Origin: Paenibacillus pabuli
GTDB taxonomy: Bacteria > Bacillota > Bacilli > Paenibacillales > Paenibacillaceae
Reading direction: 5' to 3'
Assembly (NCBI RefSeq): GCF_039831995.1
Contig: NZ_JBDOIO010000005.1
Coordinates: 744,001 to 808,000, forward strand
DNA length: 64,000 nt
Within the stretch, counting starts at the first letter, position 1. Each line of letters opens with the position of its first letter. A program made the translations under genes and the position numbers. Positions 55,399 to 63,517 of this stretch are shown piece after piece. The notes under the pieces are model-generated. The model was not told where the DNA came from and searched no databases. It worked only from the letters and a program-made list of their open reading frames with translations.

Positions 55399-55471
55399 TG
55401 TATTGCACCTCCTTACAAGGAAATACTTATGTGATGAATCATTTTCATCTTCACAGAAAACACCTTTATAC

Positions 55472-55500
55472 ATTTAACCACGTACACCTGGAAAAGTCAA
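55472..55500 (-). promoter_or_regulatory. Promoter of rpmH
   Basis: TTGACT and TTAAAT with 17-bp spacing, about 75 bp before the TTG start. Confidence 0.7.
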
Positions 55501-55616
55501 CTCTATCCCCCTTAGATTCTCCCTCTTTTTAAAGCCCTTTCCAGCCTTCCCTTCAGAGCTCGTACTCCTTACCGCAGAATTTGATTTTGAATAAAAGAAT
55601 TCTGATGCGAGAAAAG

Positions 55617-55744
55617 TTATCCCCAACTGGCTTTGCGCAGTCTTTATATTCGTCACTTCAAGGGTTATCCACACCCCGATCTGGATTTCTCACTCACCTC
55701 TCTCCCTCCACTTTAATAACCTGAAGTTATTCACATGTGGATAA
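55617..55744. other. DnaA-box cluster beside rpmH (left part of the origin)
   Basis: TTATCCCCA at 55617-55625 (one mismatch), TTATCCACA at 55665-55673 (perfect), and head-to-head TTATTCACA/TGTGGATAA at 55727-55744. In most relatives these would be next to dnaA; here they are about 4.6 kb away from the next group. Confidence 0.85.
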
Positions 55745-55906
55745 CGGATTTAACTTATTTTATTCATAGGAAATTTCCTTGGTAAATCGATCTACGTCTC
55801 CCTCCTGAAGGTGACAAACTCTCTAATTATCTTTCTCAACTCACTTAGCGAATTTATAAATACTTTTGCCAATTTAAAATTTAATGTATCCGCTTTAATT
55901 TGAAGG

Positions 55907-55935
55907 TTTACAAGCTTTCAAGAAAGGTGTAGGAT
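55907..55935 (+). promoter_or_regulatory. Promoter upstream of gntR
   Basis: TTTACA and TAGGAT with 17-bp spacing, just before a GntR operator. Confidence 0.7.
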
Positions 55936-55946
55936 AAAAAACACAT

Positions 55947-55958
55947 CTTGTATACAAG
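55947..55958. promoter_or_regulatory. GntR operator upstream of gntR
   Basis: Palindrome CTTGTATACAAG followed by TAT, the core of the Bacillus gnt operator (ATACTTGTATACAAGTAT). It lies about 12 bp after the -10, where bound GntR would block its own promoter. Confidence 0.8.
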
Positions 55959-56096
55959 TATACTTACGTATCCATTGAGGAAATTTTCGCATTACCCTAA
56001 CTCTCTTTGGTTTACAAAAGTAATGAAACTGGGCTCTTTGAAAAACGGCAAGAAGAAGAAACTATGTTATGGACTTTGGCTTCCTTTCAGACAGCA

Positions 56097-56168
56097 TGCA
56101 AACTGCAAAAAGGTTGTGCTATGATCAGTGTACAGGTCCATTTGGATGGAGTACCGAATGTTGGACCT
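56097..56168 (+). promoter_or_regulatory. Second gntR promoter and leader hairpin
   Basis: TGCAAA and TATGAT with 17-bp spacing and TGC before the -10 (56097-56125). The following leader has an AGGTCCA / TGGACCT inverted repeat (56134-56140, 56162-56168). Confidence 0.5.
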
Positions 56169-56205
56169 ACATGAACTGATTATTTGAATAGGAGCGTTAG
56201 CCATT

Positions 56206-56880
56206 ATGTTGTTTCCTTCTTCCTGGCTGCAGGGAGCTTCCCGCGGGGAAGCCATCGCCTGCGAATTAAGGCTGCGCATCATCAGTGGAACCCTGCGTCC
56301 TGGAGAAATTTTGTCTGAGAATCGAATCGCCGCTGATTTTGAAAGCAGTCGATCACCTGTCCGCGAAGCTTTGAGAACACTGTCGAATGAAGGCCTGATT
56401 CGGCTTGAACGGATGGGTGTGGTCGTTCTTGGATTGAAGATCAAGGATGTTGAAGAGCTGTACGATGTCCGTTTTCTGATTGAGAGCTTTGTCCAGCAGC
56501 GACTTGCCGGGTCCGTTCCCGAGCAATTGATTACTTCGCTTCGTAATATACTGGACAAAATGGAGCTGGCTGGCAGGCATCAGGATGCCATCGAGTTTGC
56601 TTATCAGGATCTGACCTTCCATGAGACCATCATCGAGGCCGCCGAGCATTCCCGTATTTCCCATTTATGGAGAAGCATTCGTTATGTTGTCATGACGGTT
56701 ATGCTGCTCACAACCCGAAGGGTGTTTGTTCAGGGCGATCCAAAAGTAAGCGCTGTAATTCAAAAACACCGATTGCTCATTGAAGCACTTGAATCAGGTG
56801 ACAAAGCATCCATTCAGGCCGGAGTGCGTACGTACTTTCAGGATTCCGGCAAAACCCTGCATGAAAGCTTCGACTCCTAA
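56206..56880 (+). CDS. gntR: Gluconate operon repressor GntR (FadR-type)
   Basis: 224 aa. N-terminal winged helix (about 10-75, LRPGEILSENRIAADFESSRSPVREALRTL) and a C-terminal FCD ligand domain (about 85-215) with metal-binding His candidates. First gene of gntR-gntP-gntK. Ribosome site AGGAGCG. Confidence 0.9.
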   Translation: MLFPSSWLQGASRGEAIACELRLRIISGTLRPGEILSENRIAADFESSRSPVREALRTLSNEGLIRLERMGVVVLGLKIKDVEELYDVRFLIESFVQQRLAGSVPEQLITSLRNILDKMELAGRHQDAIEFAYQDLTFHETIIEAAEHSRISHLWRSIRYVVMTVMLLTTRRVFVQGDPKVSAVIQKHRLLIEALESGDKASIQAGVRTYFQDSGKTLHESFDS

Positions 56881-56961
56881 CAATGAAACGAGAACGTTTT
56901 AAAGTTTACATTTTGGGTTTAAATACTGTCGACTACTCGCAATCACATCCGGCTGGATGGA

Positions 56962-56990
56962 TTGCCGCTCAACTTGTCGACAAGTATACA
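56962..56990 (+). promoter_or_regulatory. gntP promoter with a GntR operator in its spacer
   Basis: TTGCCG-17 bp-TATACA. The spacer contains CTTGTCGACAAG (56973-56984), a variant of the gntR operator, followed by TATAC. Confidence 0.72.
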
Positions 56991-57058
56991 AAATGCGATT
57001 TAGTTTCATATTTTTGGACATATTATAGGGAGAAAAACTTCCCTGACGGCAAATTCAC

Positions 57059-57074
57059 TTGTAAGCGTTTATAT
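57059..57074 (+). promoter_or_regulatory. Candidate cre site (CcpA) before gntP
   Basis: TTGTAAGCGTTTATAT matches WTGNAANCGNWNNCAW at all but one fixed position. It lies downstream of the promoter, where CcpA would block elongation. Confidence 0.45.
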
Positions 57075-57096
57075 TCAAAACAAAGGAGCATACATC

Positions 57097-58458
57097 ATGA
57101 GCACTCTTTTTGGACTATCCCATAATGCAACATTATTAGTTTGGACATTGATTGCGATCGTATTTCTGATCGTGTTGATCTCCAAATATAAATGGAATCC
57201 CTTCGTTACCCTTTTAATATCCGCATTGATGCTTGGTCTGCTTGCAGGCATGAAACCTGCCGATGTCATCTCGTCCATTACAGGCGGACTCGGCGGTACG
57301 CTTGGAACAATAGCCATTGTTATCGGGCTTGGCACGATGCTGGGTAAAATGATGGCTGAATCAGGCGGTGCCGAACGAATCGCGACCACACTGGTTGATC
57401 GCTTCGGCGTTAAACGTGTGCACTGGGCCATGATGATCGTTGGATTTATCGTGGGTATTCCTGTCTTCTTCGAAGTTGGCGTAATTCTGCTGATTCCGAT
57501 CATTTTCACCGTTGCACGCAAAACGAATATGTCGCTCCTGCAGATCGGGATTCCGATTTTGGCGGGTCTGTCGACTGTACATGGTCTGGTTCCACCGCAT
57601 CCGGCTCCAATGATTGCTATTGATGCATTCAACGCCGATTTAGGGAAAACCATTCTGTACTCCCTCATTGTTGGTATTCCGACAGCTATTATTGCAGGTC
57701 CTTTGTTCGGTAAATTTATCGGCAAAAGAATACACACTGAACCGCCAGCGGAGCTGGCAGAGCAGTTCGCAACGAAAAAAAGCACCAATCTTCCAGGGTT
57801 CGGCATTACCCTGTTTACGATCTTGCTGCCAGTCATCCTTATGCTGATCGGCTCCATTGCCAATATCGTAGACCCCAATGCCACAAGCGGCTTTACGGTC
57901 TTCAGTGAGTTTATCGGGCATGAGATCATTGCCCTGTTGATATCCGTTGTGTTTGCCCTCTTTTCGCTCGGCTTCGCACGCGGATTTACGAAACACGATA
58001 TTTCCCGCTTTACCAGTGAATGTCTGGCGCCTACGGCGACCATCATCCTCATTATTGGTGGGGGCGGCGCATTTAAACAAGTCTTGATCAATAGCGGTGT
58101 CGGCAATGCGATCGCAGAAGTCGCTACTCATGCCAATATCAACGTCATTTTGTTTGCTTGGCTGGTAGCTGCACTGATTCGGGTAGCCACAGGCTCGGCA
58201 ACGGTCGCCATGACTACGGCAGCTGGTATCGTTGCTCCGGTTCTAGCGCTGACTCCAGGAGCTAATATTGAGCTGGTTGTACTTGCTACTGGTGCAGGCT
58301 CACTTGTTTTGTCCCACGTGAATGACGCGGGCTTCTGGATGATTAAGGAGTTCTTTAATATGAGCGTCTCCCAGACACTGAAAACGTGGACCGTTATGGA
58401 AACACTATTATCCGTCGTTGGACTGATCTTTATTTTGCTGCTTAGTACCGTGATTTAA
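57097..58458 (+). CDS. gntP: Gluconate permease GntP
   Basis: 453 aa, about 12 to 14 hydrophobic segments with the GntP-family features GLGTMLGKMMAESGGAERIA and GGGGAFKQVLINSGVG. It takes up gluconate by proton symport. ATG follows AAAGGAGCATACATC. It lies 60 bp before gntK. Confidence 0.94.
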   Translation: MSTLFGLSHNATLLVWTLIAIVFLIVLISKYKWNPFVTLLISALMLGLLAGMKPADVISSITGGLGGTLGTIAIVIGLGTMLGKMMAESGGAERIATTLVDRFGVKRVHWAMMIVGFIVGIPVFFEVGVILLIPIIFTVARKTNMSLLQIGIPILAGLSTVHGLVPPHPAPMIAIDAFNADLGKTILYSLIVGIPTAIIAGPLFGKFIGKRIHTEPPAELAEQFATKKSTNLPGFGITLFTILLPVILMLIGSIANIVDPNATSGFTVFSEFIGHEIIALLISVVFALFSLGFARGFTKHDISRFTSECLAPTATIILIIGGGGAFKQVLINSGVGNAIAEVATHANINVILFAWLVAALIRVATGSATVAMTTAAGIVAPVLALTPGANIELVVLATGAGSLVLSHVNDAGFWMIKEFFNMSVSQTLKTWTVMETLLSVVGLIFILLLSTVI

Positions 58459-58517
58459 GATTGCATCTATTAGAAGATAAAATTTCACCGTATCAAGGGA
58501 AAGAAGGATTACACCAA

Positions 58518-60065
58518 ATGAAAAAATATATGATTGGCATGGATATCGGGACCACCAGCACCAAATCCGTACTATTTACGGAGCAAGGTGAGGTTGTGAG
58601 CACTTCAACTCAGGAATATCCTCTATATACACCTGCGCCTGATGTAGCTGAGCAGGATCCGGAGGAAATTGTACAAGCCGCTATTCGCTCCGTACGTGGG
58701 ATCATGGATCAGAGCGGCGTAAGTGCAGGACAAATCATGTTTTTGTCCTGCAGCTCTGCCATGCACAGTGTGATTGCCATGGGCCAAGATCATAAGCCGC
58801 TCACTCGCTGCATTACTTGGGCCGATAACCGAAGTGCAGCCTGGTCAGCCCAATTACAGGAGAGCGGGCAAGGTCATCGCATCTATTTGCGTACAGGTAC
58901 ACCTATCCATCCCATGTCTCCACTAACCAAGCTCATGTGGCTGCGTCATGATGAACCTGATCTTTTCCAGCGTACAGCCAAGTTTATCTCCATTAAAGAG
59001 TATCTGTTCTTCCGTTTGTTCGGACAATATATAGTGGATCATTCCATCGCTTCCTGCACCGGTCTTCTCAATCTGGAAGAGCTGGATTGGGATACGGAAG
59101 CGCTGGAGGTTGCAGGGATCACACCTGAACACCTCTCGAAGCTTGTTCCAACGACATATACTATAGAGGGAATGGACAGCGAATGTGCAGAAAAAATGGG
59201 ACTATCCCCCTCTACTCCTTTTGTGATCGGAGCAAGTGACGGGGTTTTATCCAATCTCGGCGTAAACGCCATCGAGCCTGGAGTTGTGGCAGCAACTATT
59301 GGTACCAGTGGTGCCATTCGTACGGTCGTTGATCGCCCTGTTACCGATCCCAAAGGACGGACCTTCTGTTATGCCCTTACTGAGGATCTCTGGGTCGTTG
59401 GCGGGCCTGTGAATAACGGTGGCATGCTGTTTCGCTGGGTGCGTGACGAATTCGCAGCGTCTGAAGTGGAAACAGCGAAAAGGCTTGGTATCAATTCGTA
59501 CGACGTCCTAACCAAAATTGCTGAGCGAGTCAGTCCGGGATCTGAAGGACTACTGTTCCATCCTTATTTATCAGGAGAGCGTGCCCCACTATGGAATCCG
59601 GATGCCCGTGGTTCCTTCTTTGGTTTGACTCTCCATCATCAGAAAGAGCACATGATTCGTGCTGTTCTGGAAGGGGTTATTTTCAACCTGTATACCGTCT
59701 TGCTGGCCATGGAAGAACAGATCGGGCAACCAACCTCCATTCAGGCTACCGGAGGATTCGCACGTTCCCCTCTCTGGCGTCAGATGATGTCCGATATTTT
59801 CAATCAGGAGGTCGTTGTCCCGGAGAGCTTCGAAAGCTCCTGTCTGGGCGCCGTGGTCCTTGGTCTGTACGCTACAGGACGAATCAAGTCACTTCATGCC
59901 GTCTCTTCTATGGTGGGTACAACACACAGACATACCCCTGTTCGAGAAAACGCAGCAATTTACCGTGAACTGCTCCCCATTTTCATTCGCATCTCGCGCA
60001 AACTTGAAGAGGAATATGCAGATATTGCGGAATTCCAGCGCAAATTGTCCTTAAGAACCGAGTAA
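58518..60065 (+). CDS. gntK: Gluconokinase GntK (FGGY family)
   Basis: 515 aa. FGGY N-terminal motif MIGMDIGTTSTKSVLF and ASDGVLSNLG, C-terminal GERAPLWNPDARG and ATGGFARSPLWRQMMSD. Phosphorylates gluconate to 6-phosphogluconate. ATG at 58518 follows GAAGGA; the 19 upstream codons are excluded. Completes a repressor-permease-kinase unit. Confidence 0.95.
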   Translation: MKKYMIGMDIGTTSTKSVLFTEQGEVVSTSTQEYPLYTPAPDVAEQDPEEIVQAAIRSVRGIMDQSGVSAGQIMFLSCSSAMHSVIAMGQDHKPLTRCITWADNRSAAWSAQLQESGQGHRIYLRTGTPIHPMSPLTKLMWLRHDEPDLFQRTAKFISIKEYLFFRLFGQYIVDHSIASCTGLLNLEELDWDTEALEVAGITPEHLSKLVPTTYTIEGMDSECAEKMGLSPSTPFVIGASDGVLSNLGVNAIEPGVVAATIGTSGAIRTVVDRPVTDPKGRTFCYALTEDLWVVGGPVNNGGMLFRWVRDEFAASEVETAKRLGINSYDVLTKIAERVSPGSEGLLFHPYLSGERAPLWNPDARGSFFGLTLHHQKEHMIRAVLEGVIFNLYTVLLAMEEQIGQPTSIQATGGFARSPLWRQMMSDIFNQEVVVPESFESSCLGAVVLGLYATGRIKSLHAVSSMVGTTHRHTPVRENAAIYRELLPIFIRISRKLEEEYADIAEFQRKLSLRTE

Positions 60066-60090
60066 ATGTTTCCTCAATAATCACCAAAAA

Positions 60091-60137
60091 AGAGGTTGTT
60101 CACTTAGACCACACGTTGGCCTTAAGGAACAACCTCT
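60091..60137 (+). terminator. Terminator of the gnt operon
   Basis: AGAGGTTGTTC / GAACAACCTCT with a 25-nt loop, flanked by runs of A and T on both sides, so it could work in both directions. Confidence 0.85.
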
Positions 60138-60371
60138 TTTTTTCGTCCATTTATTTGGTTCAATCTATTAATTCAAATTCAGCAATCACACCCGAAATTC
60201 ATGTCATCCTTCCTCCATCCATCCAGCACGTCAACCTGCCTCTTTTCATGCTAATCGGCTTGACTGCCTCCATTTTCGATCCCTCAAAACCCAGCTTATG
60301 CAAACAACCCTAGATGAGGTTAAAGAGGCGAACTTCAACAGATCCCCAAACCTGCCATTCTGAATACGTGG

Positions 60372-60663
60372 TTATCCACAGACGTGTTATTCACAACTTT
60401 GGGGTCATTTTACACACAATTCAGCGATTTTCGACGGACAACCTGTGTATAAAACATTTTGGCTTTCTGGTTCATCCTGTCGAAAATTAAACAATTTATA
60501 AACAATATATTGTGTTGTGATTAAAAATTATACACAAGTTATTGAATTTGTGGATAAAATCTCGCGATACGTTGAAATGCGGGGCTTCTTTTGCTATGAT
60601 TGTATTACTTTTGGATGTGAATATGTGATCTGACTCATAATATTATCAACAGCCTGTGGATAA
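60372..60663. other. DnaA-box cluster upstream of dnaA
   Basis: TTATCCACA at 60372-60380, TTATTCACA at 60387-60395, TGTGTATAA at 60444-60452, TTATACACA at 60528-60536, TGTGGATAA at 60549-60557 and 60655-60663. Three match consensus and three differ by one base. Confidence 0.88.
60572..60600 (+). promoter_or_regulatory. dnaA promoter
   Basis: TTGAAA-17 bp-TATGAT with TTGC before the -10. A DnaA box ends 14 bp upstream and another lies about 55 bp downstream, so autoregulation is expected. Confidence 0.8.
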
Positions 60664-60807
60664 AGTTGTGAACAATTTTCCGTTGTTCATTCTTTTTTTG
60701 TTTTCGACCTGCGGGGGTTTGGGGATAAATTCAACAATATATCTCGTATTTCGACACTGCATCATGGCTTAAGCCACACTTGGAACATGTAAAAGGAGTG
60801 ACAGTCT

Positions 60808-62154
60808 GTGGACAGCCATACTTCTGATTTATGGCAGCAAATTTTATCAATCATACAAAACAAGCTCAGCAAACCCAGCTTCGATACCTGGTTCAAAGCC
60901 ACCAAAGCAACGAAGCTGAATGACAGTTCAATCGTCATTTCCGCGCCAACTACGTTTGCCGTCGAATGGCTGGAGAGCCGTTACACCAAATTGGTTGGCT
61001 CGACAGTATATGAACTGCTAGGCAAACAAGTCGATGTGAAATTTGTCATCGAAGAGAACAAGCCTGCTGAACCGGATCCGCAGCTGCCGGCACCAACGCC
61101 TACGGTAGTTCAGGAAGAAGCGGTACTCAGCATGCTGAATCCAAAATATACATTCGATACATTTGTCATTGGACCAGGCAACCGTTTTGCCCATGCCGCA
61201 TCGCTGGCGGTCGCTGAAGCGCCCGCCAAAGCGTACAATCCTTTGTTTTTATACGGGGGAGTTGGACTCGGCAAAACCCACTTGATGCATGCCATTGGCC
61301 ATTACGTTTTGGAGCATGATCCGGGGAGCAAGGTTGTTTATTTGTCATCTGAGAAATTTACGAACGAATTCATTAACTCCATCCGTGACAACCGCGGGGA
61401 GAGCTTCCGTAACAAATACCGGAATGTCGATATTCTGCTTATAGATGATATTCAGTTCTTGGCGGGAAAAGAATCGACACAAGAGGAATTTTTCCATACG
61501 TTTAATGCGCTGCATGAGGAGCGGAAACAGATCATTATCTCCAGCGACAGACCACCGAAGGAAATTCCGACCCTGGAAGAGCGGCTTCGTTCCCGCTTCG
61601 AATGGGGATTAATTACGGATATCCAGCCTCCGGATCTCGAGACACGGATCGCCATTTTGCGTAAAAAGGCGCGTGCGGAAAACCTCGATATTCCTAACGA
61701 AGCAATGATGTACATCGCCAACCAGATCGACACCAATATTCGTGAACTGGAAGGTGCACTAATTCGAGTAGTTGCCTACTCTTCACTGACGAATCAAGAC
61801 GTAACGACTCATCTGGCTGCAGAAGCATTGAAGGATATCATTCCTTCCAGCCGTCCTAAAATGATCACTATTCAAGACATCCAACAAAAGGTCGGCGAGT
61901 ATTACAGCCTTAAGCTTGAAGATTTCAAAGCACGGAAGCGGACCAAAGCCGTTGCTTTCCCTAGACAGATTGCCATGTATCTATCGCGTGAACTGACCGA
62001 TTTCTCTTTGCCCAAAATTGGGGAAGCATTCGGAGGACGAGATCATACGACAGTCATTCATGCACACGAAAAAATCTCCCAATCGATCAAAGTCGATCAG
62101 GAGCTCTATAAAGTTATCAACAACTTAACCGAAAAAATAAAGAATCAAACCTGA
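60808..62154 (+). CDS. dnaA: Chromosomal replication initiator DnaA
   Basis: 448 aa. Domain I (1-80), short linker, AAA+ domain III with Walker [10 protein letters not shown] (about 150-158) and Walker [10 protein letters not shown], and domain IV with the DnaA signature [15 protein letters not shown]. Start is GTG at 60808, after AAAGGAGTGACAGTCT. Confidence 0.98.
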
Positions 62155-62187
62155 ACAAGTCCCAAGCCTATGCACAACGTGTACACA

Positions 62188-62231
62188 TGTGGATAGGCTT
62201 AATTTTATGGGTTTATACCCACTTATCCACA
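62188..62231. other. DnaA boxes between dnaA and dnaN
   Basis: TGTGGATAG (62188-62196) and TTATCCACA (62223-62231). They precede the unwinding element. Confidence 0.85.
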
Positions 62232-62240
62232 TATTCAGTG

Positions 62241-62261
62241 CCCCTATTACTATTATTACTA
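62241..62261. other. Predicted origin unwinding element with DnaA-trios
   Basis: After the last DnaA box and a CCCC cluster come CTA, TTA, CTA, TTA, TTA, CTA. The complementary strand reads 3'-GAT-AAT-GAT-AAT-AAT-GAT-5', six consecutive DnaA-trio repeats (3'-[G/A]AT-5'). Confidence 0.82.
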
Positions 62262-62374
62262 TAAAGATCTAAAAGATATCATCTCCAAATACGCCGTTTG
62301 AAGCTCGGCCTCCGGCCTTTTGATTAACACCTTTCAATACCCAAACACCCAAAAAATCCGCTAGGAGTGAAACC

Positions 62375-63517
62375 ATGAAAATCAGCATAATGAAAAGCTA
62401 TCTGAACGAATCTATCCAGCATGTATCCAAAGCCATCTCCAGCCGCACGACAATCCCCATCTTGAGCGGGATCAAATTCGACGTTAATCATCAAGGTGTG
62501 ACGTTGACAGCAAGTGACACGGATATATCGATTCAATCCTTTATCCCGCTTGAAGAGGGAGATAAAAGCGTAGTTCAGGTTGAACAACCAGGTAGTGTTG
62601 TACTGCCAGCCAAGTTTTTTGTCGAGATCATCAAAAAACTGCCTTCCCAGGAAATCCACATGGAGGTCAAAGACAATTTCAACACCTTCATCTCAGCAGG
62701 CGCTACCGAAATTCAGCTGGTTGGTCTGGATCCGGAAGAATTCCCGGTATTGCCAAGCATCGAAGAGAACCAAACGGTCTCCATTCCTGGAGATCTGCTT
62801 AAGAACATGGTGAAGCAAACGGTATTCTCCATTTCCACCCACGAAACGACTCCAATCCTGACGGGTGTACTCTGGAGCCTTGGGGATAATGAGTTGAAAT
62901 TTGTGGCAACCGACCGTCACCGTCTTGCTACTCGTTCAGCAATGCTGGATAATGCAGAGGGAGTACGTTTCAACAATGTCGTCATCTCGGGTAAAACGCT
63001 GAACGAACTCAGCAAAATTGTGCCGGATCAAAATACACTTGTGGATATCGTTGTTGCCGACAACCAGGTCCTGTTCAAAATTGATCGTGTCCTGTTCTAT
63101 TCACGCATTTTGGACGGAACATATCCGGATACTTCTAGAATTATTCCGACTTCGTACAAAACAGAACTTGTTTTGGATACAAAAAAATTAAGTGAGTCAA
63201 TTGACCGGGCCTATTTGCTGTCTCGTGAAGAAAAAACCAACATTGTGCGCATGCAGACGATGGAATCCGGAACAATCGAAATTTCATCAAGCTCCTCTGA
63301 GCTGGGGAAAGTAAGAGAAGAAATTGAACCTGCCGAATTTACCGGCGATCCGCTGAAAATCTCGTTCAACTCCAAATATATGCTGGATGTGCTGAAAGTG
63401 GTGGAGAGTGAGCAGCTGATGATTGCTTTTACCGGCGTCATGAGCCCGATCATTTTGAAGCCGCTGGATGACAGTCACAGCCTTTACGTCATCTTGCCTT
63501 ACCGGACGACCAACTAA
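62375..63517 (+). CDS. dnaN: DNA polymerase III beta (sliding clamp)
   Basis: 380 aa, three clamp domains, N-terminus MKISIMKSYLNESIQHVSKAI, C-terminus ILPYRTTN. It forms the dimeric ring that holds polymerase on DNA. Ribosome site TAGGAGTG 6 nt before the ATG. A weak GGCC-TCC-GGCC hairpin lies before it. Confidence 0.98.
   Translation: MKISIMKSYLNESIQHVSKAISSRTTIPILSGIKFDVNHQGVTLTASDTDISIQSFIPLEEGDKSVVQVEQPGSVVLPAKFFVEIIKKLPSQEIHMEVKDNFNTFISAGATEIQLVGLDPEEFPVLPSIEENQTVSIPGDLLKNMVKQTVFSISTHETTPILTGVLWSLGDNELKFVATDRHRLATRSAMLDNAEGVRFNNVVISGKTLNELSKIVPDQNTLVDIVVADNQVLFKIDRVLFYSRILDGTYPDTSRIIPTSYKTELVLDTKKLSESIDRAYLLSREEKTNIVRMQTMESGTIEISSSSSELGKVREEIEPAEFTGDPLKISFNSKYMLDVLKVVESEQLMIAFTGVMSPIILKPLDDSHSLYVILPYRTTN

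Follow-up and report, generated by a model that had tools for sequence, protein, structure and literature searches.

Does a metabolic operon that lies inside a chromosomal replication origin take part in initiation, and what becomes of the DnaA boxes that it separates? The question is raised by a 64,000-nucleotide stretch of Paenibacillus pabuli DNA (positions 744,001 to 808,000 of contig NZ_JBDOIO010000005.1, RefSeq assembly GCF_039831995.1), here called the window, which is a stretch of one contig in a 6.9-Mb genome of 5 contigs. An earlier note, made from the letters alone, had placed a complete gntR-gntP-gntK gluconate operon in the gap between rpmH and dnaA, with clusters of DnaA boxes about 4.6 kb apart on its two sides, and had proposed that a gluconate switch at this position could influence initiation. 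Gene calls bore out the operon, and the boxes exceed chance on both sides of it. The reading that we consider probable is an old gnt insertion into the upstream half of a bipartite oriC, in which the boxes stranded by the operon would serve as a local or titrating DnaA site and the operon itself would have no role in initiation. What is new is a DnaA-box pair tied to gnt-bearing origins, and this stranded pair, rather than the sugar switch, is the interesting part of the locus.

DnaA boxes were scored as sites with at most one mismatch to TTATCCACA and compared with counts expected from order-1 resampling. This revealed four boxes on the rpmH side (at 55617, 55665, 55727 and 55736, with 0.275 expected), eight on the dnaA side (60372, 60387, 60444, 60528, 60549, 60643, 60655 and 60720, with 0.345 expected) and two in the dnaA-dnaN gap (62188 and 62223, with 0.075 expected), while the interior of the operon holds one box against 0.87 expected, which is no enrichment. 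Both clusters lie where the earlier note had put them, but the dnaA-side array extends to 60728 and two further boxes are found beyond dnaA. The rpmH side consists of two outer boxes on the forward strand (55617..55673), TTATCCCCA at 55617 and TTATCCACA at 55665, followed by an abutting head-to-head pair, TTATTCACA-TGTGGATAA, with boxes on both strands (55727..55744). The dnaA-side array of eight boxes (60372..60728) includes the core array common to gnt-less relatives.

To follow the pair through relatives, DnaA and GntK were positioned in all 75 genomes of the genus, together with their rpmH-dnaA stretches, and the comparison was extended with a wider family sample of 295 genomes, in which g-numbers (g1, g5, g7, g13, g18 and so on) denote GTDB genera. 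We compared 96 gnt-bearing origins with 70 gnt-less gaps, the latter made up of 53 surveyed loci and 17 named ones (5 Paenibacillus, 1 Brevibacillus and 11 other Bacillales). Both counts exclude the window itself and L007, L009 and L010 (near-copies of L154, L112 and L186), and L011, L157-L162 and L193, which have no rpmH in their stretches, also fall outside them. On the rpmH side, the best 18-mer match to the pair TTATNCACATGTGGAWAA had at most two mismatches in 96/96 gnt-bearing intervals, and no match within two mismatches was found in the 70 gnt-less gaps (minimum, three) or upstream of 19 gnt operons elsewhere (L157 and L162 excluded), where the best match had at least five. In the window, the pair at 55727 is the best such 18-mer in all 64 kb, the next having four mismatches, at 62179. 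In each of the 96 origins, the pair is located in the interval from rpmH to the first gnt gene; it accompanies the operon in 150/150 rows and is kept even where gntK alone remains (L178, L181 and L195), at distances from dnaA of about 2.0 kb (L195) to 9.6 kb (L184).

Conservation of the pair has the form expected of DnaA boxes, whose consensus is TTWTNCACA. Across 36 diverse genomes, pair columns average 1.73 bits, compared with 0.27 and 0.22 in the 60-bp flanks, and conservation is lowest at the N of one TTWTNCACA arm (0.04) and next lowest at the W of the other (0.87). Both arms match the consensus exactly in 84/96 origins and one arm is off by one in the remaining 12. The best abutting pair upstream of the core has a total of 0 or 1 mismatches to the consensus in the 96 gnt-bearing origins versus at least 2 in the 53 gnt-less surveyed loci. 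Two points temper this picture: single flank columns reach 1.51 and 1.28 bits, and on the tree the association of pair and operon comes down to only 4/4 independent contrasts (sign test, p 0.125). The idea that the pair is simply part of the gnt module was dropped as unsupported, given its absence from all 19 gnt loci elsewhere, while an operator-like site follows the operon to either location.

A second abutting pair, GTGTACACATGTGGATAG, built like the one on the rpmH side, lies in the dnaA-dnaN half (62179..62196). Pairs within two mismatches of CTATACACATGTGGATAG occur there in 69/69 gnt-bearing loci, 49/53 gnt-less surveyed loci and 8/17 named gnt-less loci. Conservation of this like-built pair with or without gnt genes suggests that abutting boxes are a functional form for DnaA in these origins. 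The stranded pair is likewise a putative DnaA-binding site. Such a pair beside the predicted unwinding site is seen in most Paenibacillaceae loci compared and in some other Bacillales. The unwinding site itself is predicted at 62223..62262 on the forward strand, downstream of dnaA as in B. subtilis, because a DnaA box (TTATCCACA), a GC patch and a DnaA-trio-like run (TAN-type) follow one another in the dnaA-dnaN gap. By mismatch count it is similar in the 139 loci compared, with 0 to 9 mismatches over 36 bases. Measured against a Bacillus-type bipartite oriC, the unwinding site with DnaA-trios between dnaA and dnaN is present as judged by sequence only, and the contiguous upstream cluster between rpmH and dnaA is not, since gnt interrupts it and leaves 4.6 kb between the clusters. 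The operon parts the outer boxes from the core array, which looks intact, as does the predicted unwinding region.

Comparison with gnt-less origins, with positions anchored on the core boxes (0, +21 and +127), points to where the operon entered. In g1, g13 and g15, gnt-less origins carry a forward-strand box near -135 as well as one at -83 (32/32 each); in 30/32, another forward-strand box lies 28-65 bp further out. In gnt-bearing origins, the dnaA side has the core array in 95/96 (the L197 stretch stops 165 bases short of the contig end, which cuts its dnaA-side array) and the -83 box in 93/96, while the rpmH side has the pair with a forward-strand box 28-65 bp upstream in 94/96. Because the -135 box is present in 32/32 gnt-less g1, g13 and g15 origins versus a -135-like box on the dnaA side of 16/96 gnt-bearing ones, the insertion point most likely falls inside the upstream box array, with the -135 box on one side and the -83 box on the other. 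The pair would then, likely at best, descend from the -135 box. Arguing the other way, the 16 origins include 4/5 of g13, which also have the pair, and the -135 box is found in 0/20 gnt-less g5, g7, g9, g17 and g19 origins, where the -83 box is found in 19/20; the -135 box is therefore not general in the family. A candidate in which the ancestral cluster survives in full as the dnaA-side array, with the rpmH-side boxes as additions, was withdrawn on the -135 box counts, though the 0/20 leaves room for it. The window's own clade has two added boxes on the dnaA side, at about -156 and -141. In G313, a gnt-less member of g18, two outer forward-strand boxes persist at a distance of about 0.6 kb from the core, without the second arm; this lineage appears to have lost the operon again.

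The layout is widespread and is no product of assembly. The earlier note had counted the presence of one arrangement throughout the genus among the grounds against its reading, and this holds in part: gnt genes lie between rpmH and dnaA in 56/75 genus genomes, and the remaining 19 (P. massiliensis-like and 90%-DnaA lineages, G014 and G074) have gaps of 0.8-1.1 kb without gnt, with G026, G027 and G063 scored as gnt-less from the position of rpmH together with the length of the contig. A join artefact at the gnt borders, which the note had also raised, is excluded by 18 of the 56 gnt-bearing genus genomes, which are single-contig and show the same layout, 6 of them unbroken and 12 across the contig end (the record starting at dnaA with the operon at the other end). 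Outside the genus, 37/38 examined g18 genomes carry gnt genes in the interval (G322 and G325 fall outside the examined set, and L193, from G274, is included by virtue of gntK and gntR in its dnaA stretch). Five of 20 examined g13 genomes also carry gnt at the origin, a figure that is no frequency estimate since those five were picked because their listed matches showed gntK near dnaA. The arrangement was absent from the examined members of g7 (n = 14), g9 (n = 3) and g5, g15, g17 and g19 (n = 1 each). Across the 70 gnt-less origins, the rpmH-dnaA gap is 0.45-1.95 kb with boxes inside, measured from the start of the rpmH match, which varies by up to 75 bp between loci. The premise that rpmH and dnaA are typically adjacent in Bacillales with boxes between them holds for the 11 named Bacillaceae and Caryophanaceae loci, where gaps are 462-1013 bp.

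Gene content varies among the 96 gnt-bearing origins. We found gntR in 93, gntP in 75 (counting two partial matches, L101 in G042 and L136 in G032) and gnd in 27, all outside this genus; gntP is gone in 21/96 and gntR in 3/96, and in 3 gntK stands alone. In the g18 locus L173, compared over its whole length, gnd lies between the operator and gntR, and no gnd remnant was found between the operator and gntR in the window. Partial gntK matches occur in L202 (G037), L125 (G005) and L156 (G054), and in some members such partial gntK or gntP matches may mean that the operon is disrupted or truncated, or may stem from errors in sequencing. Further genes lie between gntK and dnaA in L184 (G286) and L182 (G290), transposase-like in L184, with gaps of up to 9.75 kb, as though the rpmH-dnaA interval kept collecting inserts. 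Two gnt-less g7 loci, L224 and L225, have another open reading frame (ORF), of 315-382 aa, in an rpmH-dnaA gap of about 1.9 kb, apparently a different insertion. In L153 (G068), the rpmH-gntR interval of 1788 bp seems to hold an extra minus-strand gene, with the pair and box in reverse order, which looks like a local replacement or inversion.

Within the window, profile matches place a gluconokinase, a gluconate permease and a GntR regulator together. The genes, all on the forward strand, are gntR (56206..56880; GntR-type helix-turn-helix plus FCD regulator, PF00392 and PF07729), gntP (57097..58458; gluconate:H+ symporter, TIGR00791, 544.8 bits against a cutoff of 292.75) and gntK (58521..60065; FGGY gluconokinase, equivalog model TIGR01314, 830.5 bits against a cutoff of 648.55). 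No NCBIfam equivalog model matched gntR above its cutoff, and its link to gluconate is drawn from its neighbourhood and the operator-like sites. Beyond this operon, the source genome encodes another gntK, 70% identical, in a sugar-ABC context and, elsewhere, a GntP paralogue of 46% identity. The origin interval is bordered on the left by rpmH, encoding ribosomal protein L34 (55264..55398, reverse strand; PF00468 / TIGR01030), for which a longer ORF of 69 aa starting at 55473 is an alternative, the short start being preferred from the usual length of L34. On the right lie dnaA (60808..62154, forward strand; TIGR00362) and dnaN (62375..63517). GC skew is about zero over the gnt operon (56001-60000) versus about -0.12 to -0.16 over 51-56 kb on the left.

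The earlier note had also credited the operon with its own promoters, operators and terminator, and candidates for each were found on the forward strand. A promoter-like element, TTTACA-17-TAGGAT (55907..55935), comes from a pattern scan that returned 13 sites versus 9.1 in shuffles, such that it rests on the by-eye recurrence of a similar element in a few relatives. An exact GntR-type operator-like site, TTGTATACAAGTATAC, follows at 55948..55963, and a second, TTGTCGACAAGTATAC, with two mismatches to TTGTATACAAGTATAC, lies between gntR and gntP (56974..56989). Operator-like sites with at most two mismatches occur in 92/96 gnt-bearing origins, 15/19 gnt loci elsewhere and 0/70 gnt-less gaps, consistent with a conserved operator at the promoter, predicted as a sequence motif. 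After gntK, a terminator-like hairpin with a T run (60086..60148; hairpin 60086-60139, -23.7 kcal/mol) had been missed by the pattern scan, which limits loops to 8 bases. A hairpin plus T run of -15 kcal/mol or lower within 200 nt past gntK was present in 93/96 gnt-bearing origins versus 2/48 mononucleotide-shuffled stretches, with hairpin sequences that vary between lineages by eye. Because of the terminator-like hairpin and the operator-like site at the promoter, the operon looks like an autonomous GntR-controlled unit whose transcription is expected to end short of the core array.

On how often the operon moved into the origin, we prefer one move followed by losses, because place, orientation and flanking pair are the same in three groups (g1, g18 and part of g13) and because origin copies of gntK cohere: a careful gntK tree of 52 chosen rows split 32 origin copies from 20 copies elsewhere (support 94/84; recovered in 92% of 200 bootstrap trees). 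A full set of gntR, gntP and gntK matches was seen at 11 of the 19 gnt loci elsewhere. The alternative is that the operon entered the three groups separately or spread by recombination via the conserved rpmH and dnaA flanks, and parsimony alone would favour several gains. A fasttree of DnaA-YidC-RnpA from 150 loci, in which Paenibacillus xylanexedens (L007) is a named relative in the window's genus-level clade, needs at least four state changes (three gains and one loss), whereas a single gain needs at least five losses. The gntK evidence for a single move is itself weakened in that the key branch carries no star and the tree omits the long rows L162, L178, L181 and L195. A larger, quickly built tree (91 rows) places L162, a copy from elsewhere, amid those from origins. 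The g18 lineage G282, G310 and G306 groups with g1 copies, one of the groupings that cross genera, which hints at transfer. Set against the shared place, orientation, gene order and flanking pair, and against the coherence of the origin gntK copies, we regard separate entry or spread by recombination as possible though not probable.

Under the single-insertion reading, a gluconate operon, probably gnd-gntR-gntP-gntK at first, would have entered between the outer DnaA boxes and the core array and then have been lost in several lineages, with the gluconate unit working autonomously under GntR. The outer boxes, stranded by the insertion, are conserved as a strong head-to-head pair, which would bind DnaA, whether to act locally on the rpmH or gnt promoter, to titrate DnaA, or to reach across 2-10 kb to boxes of the core or the dnaA-dnaN gap. 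Of these, local action or titration is the most likely, ahead of long-range contact with the core. A specific role of the pair in placing rpmH-rnpA, or the gnt promoter, under separate DnaA control after the split from the core boxes is doubtful: its position between rpmH and the first gnt gene would suit such a role, and B. subtilis DnaA is listed as an activator or repressor of several genes in PMC4447404, but the spacing of pair and operator-like site ranges from about 60 to 265 bp in the loci compared, and the pair is missing from gnt operons elsewhere and stays where gntR is lost. It is unlikely that the pair is instead a working origin part whose bound DnaA contacts the core array and the dnaA-dnaN pair over kilobases as a three-part origin. 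A role for the upstream half is plausible because both halves of the split B. subtilis origin are stated to be essential in vivo in PMC6669920, where a box of the dnaA-dnaN half moved up to 462 bp upstream still worked and the authors infer looping. The pair is also strong in the origins with stranded outer boxes, and the like-built TATNCACATGTGGATA is conserved in the dnaA-dnaN half. However, pair-dnaA distances exceed the loops described in PMC6669920, gnt-less origins lack a strong pair, and the dnaA-side array looks complete. The fuller proposal, of a three-part origin in which the pair was retained, became stronger and still serves initiation by touching the pair beside the unwinding site from afar, is decidedly unlikely; were it true, DnaA contacts spanning 2-10 kb of unrelated genes could be tolerated by origins and maintained by evolution.

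That gluconate directly controls initiation is unlikely and finds no support here, and an effect of gluconate via GntR at the window's origin is, in our judgement, highly improbable. The operon and its operator-like sites do sit between box clusters, and if unwinding takes place in the dnaA-dnaN gap, the geometry makes transcription of gnt, as of dnaA, run head-on against the leftward fork, as the earlier note had held for the operon. Yet gntP and gntR erode with the boxes unaffected, hairpins nearly always follow gntK, the core and unwinding region look intact, and 19/75 genus genomes do without the arrangement altogether. The value of the locus lies elsewhere: nearly 100 related genomes with outer boxes stranded at varied distances, beside dozens of insertion-free relatives and G313, form a natural experiment in which the tie of the insertion to a strong DnaA-box pair offers a sharp and testable way into what the upstream half does. 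Among the open-licence papers searched, none treats, judged by title, a gluconate operon at oriC or a Paenibacillus oriC. One review (PMC4285127) states that the reason for the split of some bacterial origins is unknown.

Among known systems, the window most directly resembles the bipartite oriC of B. subtilis, with a box array between rpmH and dnaA and a second cluster with a DnaA-trio-like unwinding site between dnaA and dnaN, but it differs in having a three-gene operon in the upstream half, such that its boxes span about 6.6 kb (55617-62231). Bipartite origins span up to about 2 kb, according to the same review (PMC4285127). The operon likewise shares with the B. subtilis-type gluconate operon an FCD-type GntR, GntP, an FGGY gluconokinase and a palindromic operator-like sequence, TTGTATACAAG, and departs from it in the order gntR-gntP-gntK, the lack of gnd at the origin in this genus and its location in the origin. 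In B. subtilis, the gluconate operon, with its operator, has the order gntRKPZ. As in E. coli, where gidA and mioC border oriC, transcribed genes adjoin the origin; the E. coli genes flank the box array and do not split it. Finally, like the DnaA-box clusters outside oriC in B. subtilis and datA and DARS in E. coli, small groups of boxes close to the core but outside it could titrate DnaA, and the sequence of the pair fits TTWTNCACA as expected of a putative titrating cluster. In B. subtilis, removal of six DnaA-box clusters led to early initiation, and further evidence in that study (PMC5295017) counts against a strong titration role. Unlike those clusters, datA and DARS, the group in the window probably derives from the origin itself, stranded there by the insertion.

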